Position numbers and translations under genes: made by a program. Below, piece after piece: positions 11,873-13,507 of a stretch of 23,439 nucleotides of DNA; the stretch's first letter is position 1; each line of letters begins with the position of its first letter. The DNA comes from Flavobacterium psychrophilum (GTDB lineage Bacteria; Bacteroidota; Bacteroidia; Flavobacteriales; Flavobacteriaceae): contig CAMBHH010000029.1 in NCBI GenBank assembly GCA_945866505.1, positions 1-23,439 on the forward strand, in the 5' to 3' direction. The notes below the pieces were generated by a model that saw nothing but the letters and a program-made list of their open reading frames with translations, did not search any database and was not told the DNA's origin.

Positions 11873-12676
11873 TTAAAACTCCTCAAAAACACCCAATCCA
11901 AATAAAGCAAAATCATATTTCACGGGGTCAATCGGGTCGAGTTCCCTGAGTTTTAAATCGAGTTCCGCTACCGCTTTTGCATCATTCTGTTTCCGAGTCA
12001 ACAAACCTAATTTTCGAGCTACATTTCCAGAATGCACATCCAACGGACAGGATAGGAGCGAAGGTGAAATGCTTTTCCAAATACCCAAATCAACACCTTT
12101 GTTATCTTGGCGACACATCCACCGCAGGTACATATTAATTCTTTTTGCAGCTGAACCATTCATCGGGTCGGAGATGTGTTTTTGGGTTCGGTTTTGGTGT
12201 TCGATTTGGTTCCCCAGTTCGTCCCGATAGTTATCGGGACTCGTGTCAAAGAATATTTTCTTGAATTCCGAGATGCTTTTTTGCATCGACTTTGTTTCTT
12301 GATGTTTGGCGAAAACAGCTTCAAGACCACCGTGATTTTTATAAATATGGTGCAAACCTTTTATAAAACTGGCAAAATCCTGACCGTTGAAAGTTCTATG
12401 AACGAAGGATTCCAATCGTTCCAAATCATTTTCGGAATGTGACATTACAAAATCATAAGGCGAGTTCCCCATCAAACCCATCATTTTATGAGAATTTTTG
12501 ATAATCATTTTCCGATTGCCCCAAGCAATGGTCGCACTCAAAAAACCAGCGATTTCAATGTCTTCTTTTTGGGAAAACAAATGCGGAATTTGAACAGGAT
12601 CGCTTTCAATAAAATCAAGAGTGTTGTATTGGATGACTTTTTCGTCAAGGAAGGATTTGAGTTCTTTTTTATTCAT
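11873..12676 (-). CDS. TIGR02757 (DUF2400) family protein carrying an in-frame palindromic insert
   Basis: A 267-residue protein recognised as TIGR02757 family from the blocks AGFLSATIAWGNRKMI (43-58), RTQKHISDPMNGSAAKRIN (163-181) and SCPLDVHSGNVARKLGLL (209-226). Function is unknown; the family is soluble and common in Bacteroidota. Residues about 145-161 (TSPDNYRDELGNQIEHQ) look inserted just before the conserved RTQKHIS block. Their DNA contains the near-perfect palindrome at 12221-12240 also found in lolD. The reading frame stays open through it, so the protein is probably made with a loop extension. The gene lies downstream of lolD on the same strand after 129 nt filled by tandem repeats. 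Confidence 0.88.
   Translation of the reverse strand: MNKKELKSFLDEKVIQYNTLDFIESDPVQIPHLFSQKEDIEIAGFLSATIAWGNRKMIIKNSHKMMGLMGNSPYDFVMSHSENDLERLESFVHRTFNGQDFASFIKGLHHIYKNHGGLEAVFAKHQETKSMQKSISEFKKIFFDTSPDNYRDELGNQIEHQNRTQKHISDPMNGSAAKRINMYLRWMCRQDNKGVDLGIWKSISPSLLSCPLDVHSGNVARKLGLLTRKQNDAKAVAELDLKLRELDPIDPVKYDFALFGLGVFEEF
12217..12243. repeat. Protein-embedded palindromic repeat, copy 1 (in the TIGR02757 gene)
   Basis: The core 12221-12240 reads GTCCCGATAGTTATCGGGAC: two 9-nt arms around GT. With its flanks the 27-nt repeat matches copy 2 at 13324-13350 with one mismatch. On the coding (minus) strand it is read as SPDNYRDE. Similarity between the copies seems to continue, with gaps, for about 30 nt towards lower coordinates (shared GAAC...CGAAC pieces). 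Confidence 0.85.
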
Positions 12677-12683
12677 AATTAGA

Positions 12684-12735
12684 ACGCGGATAATACGGAT
12701 TTGCTACAGCAAAACACTGATTGAAACGGATTTTT
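12684..12735. repeat. Putative dispersed leader element with repeated ATCCG motifs
   Basis: ACGGATTT occurs twice (12695-12702 and 12726-12733) with the related GCGGATAA at 12687-12694, and a small hairpin TTGCT-AC-AGCAA sits between them (12701-12712). On the minus strand this directly precedes the TIGR02757 start. The wording resembles leader sequences I associate with Flavobacterium genomes; this is recollection, not a search result. Confidence 0.35.
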
Positions 12736-12742
12736 TTTATTT

Positions 12743-12804
12743 CTGCAACCTGCATCTGCAACCTGCATCTGCAACCTGCATCTGCAACCTGCAATCTGCA
12801 ACCT
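12743..12804. repeat. 13-nt tandem repeat (CTGCAACCTGCAT) abutting the lolD stop
   Basis: Three exact 13-nt copies start at 12743, 12756 and 12769, each a 7-mer CTGCAAC plus a 6-mer CTGCAT. They are followed by 7-nt steps CTGCAAC, CTGCAAT, CTGCAAC (12782-12802). The array ends at the lolD stop codon and lies 66 nt upstream of the TIGR02757 start, so it forms most of the gap between the two genes. Confidence 0.9.
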
Positions 12805-12805
12805 A

Positions 12806-13507
12806 CTAACTAATCAATCCATCCACCATCACTAATTTTCTATCGGCCATATTGGCTAATTCCTCGTTATGCGTTACAATGACAAAGGTTTGTCCAAATT
12901 CATCCCGCAATTTGAAAAACAATTGGTGTAAATTTTCAGCTGAATGCGTATCCAAATTTCCCGAAGGTTCGTCGGCAAATATTACGGCTGGCTTGTTGAT
13001 TAAAGCTCTTGCAACAGCCACGCGTTGTTGTTCTCCACCTGAAAGCTCGTTGGGTTTGTGGTTGATTCTATGCGAAAGTCCAAGATATTCGAGTAATCTT
13101 TTGGCTTCAGTTTCAGTTTCGTTTTTAGATTTATTGGCAATGTAAGCTGGAATACAAACATTTTCTAAGGCTGTAAATTCGGGTAATAATTGATGAAATT
13201 GGAAAATAAAACCTAGGTTCAAATTTCTGAACTTAGATAAGGTTTTGTCATTCATCGATAGAATATCTTGGTCATTGATGCGCAATTCTATTCCATTTTC
13301 GGTGGTTCGTTTAGCTTCGCTCTGTTCGTCCCGATAATTATCGGGACTCGGGTGATCTAATGTTCCCAAAATTTGTAAAAGAGTTGTTTTTCCTGCACCC
13401 GACGCGCCAACAATTGAAACAATTTCCCCTTTTTTTATGTGTAAATCAACTCCTTTCAATACGTGAAGTTGGTCGTAATATTTATGAATGCTTTTTGCTT
13501 GTATCAT
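12806..13507 (-). CDS. lolD: Lipoprotein-releasing ABC transporter ATPase LolD, with an in-frame palindromic insert
   Basis: This 233-residue ATPase powers the LolCE-type complex that extracts lipoproteins from the inner membrane for transport to the outer membrane. Motifs: Walker A GASGAGKTT (34-42), Q-loop in FIFQFHQLLPEFTALENV (Q103), signature LSGGEQQRVAVARAL (155-169), Walker B AVIFADEPSGNLD (174-186) and the H-loop H213. The stretch PSPDNYRDEQSEAKRTTENG (53-72), between GTLDHP and ELRINDQDI, is an apparent insertion containing SPDNYRDE, encoded by the perfect palindrome at 13328-13347. It falls in the variable loop after Walker A, where extra residues could be tolerated. The permease partner is not in this window. 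A related MacB/FtsE-type ATPase is the main alternative. Confidence 0.9.
   Translation of the reverse strand: MIQAKSIHKYYDQLHVLKGVDLHIKKGEIVSIVGASGAGKTTLLQILGTLDHPSPDNYRDEQSEAKRTTENGIELRINDQDILSMNDKTLSKFRNLNLGFIFQFHQLLPEFTALENVCIPAYIANKSKNETETEAKRLLEYLGLSHRINHKPNELSGGEQQRVAVARALINKPAVIFADEPSGNLDTHSAENLHQLFFKLRDEFGQTFVIVTHNEELANMADRKLVMVDGLIS
13324..13350. repeat. Protein-embedded palindromic repeat, copy 2 (in lolD)
   Basis: The core at 13328-13347, GTCCCGATAATTATCGGGAC, is a perfect 20-bp palindrome. It matches copy 1 at 12217-12243 over 27 nt with one mismatch and is read in the same frame, giving SPDNYRDE. Confidence 0.88.

Follow-up and report, generated by a model that had tools for sequence, protein, structure and literature searches.

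Two short in-frame inserts in neighbouring genes of Flavobacterium psychrophilum were found to be copies of a repeat that is dispersed in the genus. The repeat unit is ACCCGAG, a variable tip and CGAACAGGCGAAGC; its commonest form is 27 nt long. We favour, with a probability of about 0.77, a non-autonomous REP/RPE-like Flavobacterium repeat with constant ends and a mostly self-complementary tip, whose copies inside genes keep to one reading frame and whose tip can be replaced.

Two inserts in neighbouring genes of the window

The window, which is the whole stretch of DNA analysed (Flavobacterium psychrophilum contig CAMBHH010000029.1, positions 1 to 23,439, forward strand), carries two perfect copies of the palindrome GTCCCGATANNTATCGGGAC (Table 1; plus-strand coordinates), and a scan allowing up to three mismatches found no other in the window. 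Two or more copies were present in none of 100 shuffles (mean 0, largest 0). The 27-mers around the palindromes, 12217-12243 and 13324-13350, are one base apart. Both palindromes lie in intact minus-strand ORFs and are read in the identical frame as SPDNYRDE. The initial annotation was therefore right about the near-identical copies, the perfect 20-bp core, the shared frame in unbroken genes and the peptide. The first host protein scores 224.9 bits against the TIGR02757 family model (cut-off 139.2), and the best model for the LolD-type ATPase is TIGR02211 (252.3 bits, under the cut-off of 307.75). The gaps flanking lolD contain tandem repeats (12742-12804 and 13577-13638), with units of TCTGCAACCTGCA (4.8 copies) and of 21 nt (2.7 copies).

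Table 1. Positions of the host genes, the inserts with their parts, and the palindromes in the window.
Feature	Position	Strand	Basis
TIGR02757 family gene, 267 aa, host	11873..12676	-	ORF and profile match
TIGR02757 gene insert, 39 nt, in frame	12208..12246	-	presence/absence against orthologous loci
TIGR02757 insert, 5' end ACACGAG	12240-12246	-	
TIGR02757 insert, tip TCCCGATAACTATCGGGA	12222-12239	-	
TIGR02757 insert, 3' end CGAACTGGGGAACC	12208-12221	-	
20-bp perfect palindrome, tip of TIGR02757 copy	12221..12240	.	palindrome scan
lolD-type ABC ATPase gene, 233 aa, host	12806..13507	-	ORF and profile match
lolD insert, 42 nt, in frame	13313..13354	-	presence/absence against orthologous loci
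lolD insert, 5' end CACCCGAG	13347-13354	-	
lolD insert, tip TCCCGATAATTATCGGGA	13329-13346	-	
lolD insert, 3' end CGAACAGAGCGAAGCT	13313-13328	-	
20-bp perfect palindrome, tip of lolD copy	13328..13347	.	palindrome scan

The two genes were compared with 80 fetched orthologous loci, of which 73 have Flavobacterium in their title. The TIGR02757 site is empty in 78 of the 80, with one Glu codon against 14 codons in the window; the two exceptions, L004 and L062, have an insert of 27 nt there whose tip is different. The window form of the protein was also found in P0001 and P0002. The lolD insert, which encodes HPSPDNYRDEQSEA plus the frame of the next Lys codon, is common to the window, F. fluvii DSM 19978 (L003) and L007, and the site is empty in L002, L004, L006, L011 and L033. 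In F. fluvii the insert-encoded stretch is HPSPDNYRDEQSEAK. P0164 is 99% identical to the window LolD outside the linker and lacks the insert. The empty orthologues confirm the earlier proposal that the extra residues are inserts with clean presence or absence among homologues. The sizes proposed with it were too large: instead of 15-20 residues and an element of about 50-60 nt, the window has inserts of 39 nt (TIGR02757) and 42 nt (lolD) and therefore 13 and 14 residues. That the two copies are a chance similarity, or old residues common to distant homologues, is practically inconceivable, since the empty sites already refute it, P0164 has no insert and the shuffles gave no palindrome; nothing but the shortness of the match speaks for it.

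The sequence match to 2pcj places the LolD insert only as after the Walker A region. The structure models of both host proteins were too poor (mean pLDDT 58.2 and 48.2), and for this reason we do not claim that the insert loops are exposed. A second variable stretch, rich in Asn and Gly (e.g. GNGNGNGK), lies upstream of the insert site in the TIGR02757 proteins L012, P0085, P0105 and P0117.

Constant ends enclose a variable tip

When 199 genomes of Flavobacterium (the genus of G003, the genome of L003) were searched for the shared 27-mer with up to two mismatches, 27 places in 15 genomes were found, and their flanks continue alike. We then searched for ACCCGAG and CGAANAGNCGAAG spaced 4-30 nt apart. 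These constant ends were found around some tip in 108 of the 199 genomes, and the reversed-pattern control gave 0. In total the strict ends matched 455 times, with 0-22 matches per genome, a count that leaves out decayed copies, as these are missed by exact ends. In a scan of the phylum 17 of 395 genomes matched, seven of which belong to the set of 199; the match in G365 looks like chance.

Further comparisons used 195 distinct copies, a part of all, from the places listed; 194 remained after L257 had been removed as a chance match. Among these, 46 tip types were distinguished, with CGATAG accounting for 110 copies. The 22 distinct tips of at least 7 nt, several of which are variants of one another, form 68 outer pairs in total. 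In 10000 shuffles the mean was 7.7 and the highest value 21, so that 68 was never reached. Among the 18 six-base tips, 14 keep the outer C-G pair. The palindrome, which the initial annotation had taken as the repeat unit, was rejected as such: the genus scan shows constant ends around many tips, of which it is one of 46. It also occurs without the constant ends: allowing at most one substitution gave 37 such matches, which are spread over 34 loci and all lie outside long ORFs. The earlier idea of a dispersed in-frame repeat holds as far as copies in other Flavobacterium genomes and clean empty sites are concerned, but not with the palindrome as its unit or with a length of 50-60 nt.

Predicted folding differs between the forms. 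For both window inserts the prediction is a strong hairpin (z -4.1 and -3.9). The commonest 27-mer, folded as DNA, gave z +1.28, with 178 of 200 shuffles as good, and the predicted folds of two 30-nt variants use other pairs than the tip stem; these results count against a plain hairpin. In a viral collection the common 26-mer has a single exact match (L498, 282-307), inside a small ORF in the DPSDSEQAKQ frame.

Target and genomic placement

Across 148 distinct contexts the constant ends of 7 and 13 nt are identical. The CGAAG is followed by C (117) or T (29), then by A (145) and A (143), and T stands at position 5 after CGAAG in 115 of the contexts. Nearly all copies are thus located just 5' of AA (143-145 of 148), and this AA is already there in the empty HemW and HemF sites. 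Comparison of filled and empty HemW, GNAT and HemF sites revealed no clear target-site duplication; a single A is possible. The element inserts just 5' of AA, with no clear duplication of its target.

The copies are mostly intergenic, with 7 of 194 in long ORFs, an ORF being counted as long if 30 or more codons separate an ATG from the copy and 30 or more follow it. By rough ORF calling, the 194 copies divide into 66 antisense and 51 sense copies between tandem genes, 41 between convergent and 8 between divergent genes, 10 within ORFs and 18 without a placement. Constant ends around variable, paired tips, together with the 41 convergent against 8 divergent placements, could also point to a conserved structured RNA motif with constant strands and a covarying stem that is active in transcripts, the copies in genes being by-products. 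Between tandem pairs, however, antisense copies outnumber sense copies, and the exact inserts in HemF, HemW and GNAT described below require movement anyway. No known RNA family (Rfam) matched a copy, either at the gathering threshold (7 sources) or with E up to 0.5 (20 loci), and a known RNA family was rejected. We consider an RNA motif quite improbable.

Copies inside genes keep one strand and one frame

In-frame copies that are absent from orthologues were found in the conserved genes lolD, TIGR02757, hemF, hemW and a GNAT gene. HemF in L371 is 27 nt longer at the insert site than in 13 parsed relatives (30 loci scanned), HemW in L408 is 9 codons longer than in 8 parsed relatives, and the GNAT gene in L468 is 9 codons longer than in 10 parsed relatives, among them L470 (93% identical). 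A decayed copy occupies the same GNAT site in L476. RlmF in L337 is 9 residues longer than relatives, L451 among them. At the position of the L408 element, HemW of L421, L427 and L429 has other inserts of 3-10 residues; such inserts include PFDSAQNDN and the palindromic SQSFGTARSDNE.

All seven copies in long ORFs are read on one strand and in one frame, as DPS?SEQAKQ, HPSDSEQAKQ or DPRAMLEQAKQ. L251 and L264 are apparently one gene, and the seven copies therefore represent six sites: HemW, the oxygen-dependent coproporphyrinogen oxidase HemF, RlmF, TrhO, GNAT and one protein without a family. Both window copies have the same strand and frame, (D/H)P...EQAKQ. At each site four to six of the six frames are open, which gives a product of 2.3e-6 over eight sites; if it is calculated instead from how often target sites in 15 window genes fall in that phase, the product over eight sites is 4.9e-6. 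Both products take the frame as given, and agreement in any frame would be about five-fold more probable. Under a looser ORF rule three more copies would count: L298, in the same strand and frame, and L146 and L331, both antisense. These three were left out as in-gene copies; they look like upstream-start or spurious ORFs.

According to our preferred explanation, a copy within a gene would be kept only when its length is divisible by three and it stands in the one sense frame that gives the hydrophilic linker (D/H)P...EQAKQ. Selection at the protein level would purge the other frames, and the insert peptides would be translated. The strong hairpins predicted for the window copies might instead let the ribosome skip the insert, or let it be cut from the message, so that no peptide is made. 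Skipping does not need the one open frame that all in-gene copies keep, and the commonest form lacks a stable predicted fold, which makes this very improbable.

Different tips at a fixed site

In the TIGR02757 gene, the copies of L004, L062 and the window all have the ends ACACGAG and CGAACTGG, with two departures from the common ends. Since these departures are shared, the three copies look like one insertion. Their tips differ, with TCCCGATAACTATCGGGA in the window and CGACAG in L004 and L062. For LolD, 120 listed homologues and the window were sorted by text rules into 9 with PDNYR, 20 with LKSEQ, 46 with other inserts and 46 with none. Judged from the protein, a tip like CCTGAAAAG would suit the LKSEQ form. 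The DNA of this form was not found in 398 genomes, and tip exchange at lolD accordingly relies on proteins, which suggest the same exchange as at TIGR02757. In the weakly resolved LolD tree (75 of 109 inner branches open) the insert states are scattered, and it gives no number of events. As what looks like one TIGR02757 insertion carries different tips and the LolD proteins point the same way, the tip is apparently exchangeable in place. A second in-frame insert type, PSPPTPEGGV, occurs at the same LolD position (L007; P0137-P0140, P0178 and others), alone or after the first element; its DNA in L007 is CCAAGCCCCCCAACCCCCGAAGGGGGAGTG.

We suggest that the tip may be replaced at a given site while the ends stay, the window palindrome being one such tip, and that tips could be swapped via recombination or template switching at the hairpin. 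Tip changes at a fixed site, the palindrome tip standing alone in many hairpins and the unrelated inserts at the same LolD and HemW positions would also be expected if no mobile element existed and slippage during replication, or a switch of template, created palindromes on the spot and altered them there, the ends having become alike by convergence. Such rewriting does not supply 7- and 13-nt ends that are the same in 148 contexts, nor the exact 27-nt differences from empty sites, and we regard it as unlikely.

Candidates for a mobilising function

If the repeat is non-autonomous, as we favour, its copies would rely on a trans-acting helper to move, perhaps in the form of folded single strands. 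The helper could be a Y1 (HUH) REP-associated transposase (RAYT) acting in trans on the folded single strand, which would be the motor of this repeat and not a separate explanation. A Y1_Tnp match was found in 144 of the 199 genomes and in all 31 genomes with at least six copies. Copy number and Y1_Tnp matches have a partial rank correlation of 0.29 after genome size (p 2.9e-5, kinship ignored), and the lack of a clear target duplication also fits. On the other hand, among the genomes with 1-5 copies 20 lack any Y1_Tnp match, and the element is present in only one of 30 fetched Y1_Tnp loci, on which ground a transposase gene beside the element was rejected. A RAYT is a possible motor that we propose with reserve. 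No mobile intermediate or mobilising enzyme was found for the element. One Y1 transposase gene (L133, 6797-7354; genome G165) has its own repeats on both sides, of AACCTTGTAGG and AACCTTGCAGG types, which are unlike the element.

In L124 (3300-5300) and L213, small genes are arranged in arrays, with long, imperfect, attC-like inverted repeats between them. Many of these repeats have the element in their loop, and one repeat of L124 is without it. No integron integrase exceeded the cut-off in 9 genomes. An origin from integron attC sites was rejected, given that most copies lie outside attC-like repeats and no integrase passed the cut-off in these 9 genomes. In G147 (C1:997060-1018778) at least six tandem tyrosine-recombinase genes, partly similar to integron integrases, were noted.

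Discussion

A close parallel to the in-gene copies is offered by RPEs, which are described in the excerpted text of PMC2229807 as palindromic, intergenic and also in frame in conserved proteins, one RPE-bearing protein being translated and active. Like them, the element stands in frame inside conserved genes and is absent from orthologues. RPEs are 105-146 bp long and have terminal inverted repeats (PMC2229807), whereas the element has 27-42 nt. The same excerpt presents bacterial MITEs (Correia, ERIC, RUP) as non-autonomous elements that can fuse in frame to genes and among which inverted repeats at the termini and duplicated targets are the rule (PMC2229807); the element differs in having no clear duplication.

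REPs in the broad sense are dispersed repeats of about 14-40 nt, mostly outside genes. The common form of the element measures 27 nt and the window copies 39 and 42 nt, and 7 of 194 copies lie in long ORFs, in agreement with this size and placement. The element does not agree with the copy number, usually over 100 per genome (PMC2817692, in part), as 0-22 strict matches were found per genome in the 199 genomes, nor with copies flanking a Y1 gene as in RAYT-associated REPs (1 of 30 loci). The GTAG/CGTC REPs are short, palindromic and mostly intergenic, with some copies in frame within genes; REPs occur inside genes in several species, and RPE-4 and RPE-6 are counted as CGTC elements (PMC3733652, in part). 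In the same excerpt, CGTC elements do not adjoin transposase genes and have stems of 8-9 bp that almost always start with AT (PMC3733652). The common 27-mer differs from these REPs in carrying neither tag at its ends, and the palindrome tip has no AT start. The reverse strand of this tip has CGTC at its foot, so that the tip alone may be linked to CGTC elements. In the Bacteroidetes, Y1 subclass 2.6 is flanked by atypical hairpins with more copies in the genome (PMC6006769, in part). This subclass is from the same phylum; the element itself is near only one of 30 Y1_Tnp loci. The table of PMC12306157, as far as excerpted, includes two Flavobacterium genomes. Constant ends with exchangeable tips were not met in the excerpts of PMC2229807 and PMC3733652 on RPEs and REPs, and a literature search that included exact sequence strings found no description of the element.

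More tentatively, the element could be a modular hairpin cassette, in which the ends are recognised by a putative single-strand-specific enzyme, tips are swapped in place from a pool of palindromes and one frame is kept open in genes. If such a cassette exists, Flavobacterium would have a natural means of adding brief linkers to core proteins, LolD and HemF among them, and of re-editing these linkers. In-gene palindromic repeats have been described from a few lineages, and their mode of spread is unsettled. Here they occur in a cultivable genus in which filled sites can be compared exactly with empty ones and the target is clear, with a fixed frame and tips that differ on an apparently single insertion, and the mover, the rewriting of the tip in place and the tolerance of core enzymes become testable.
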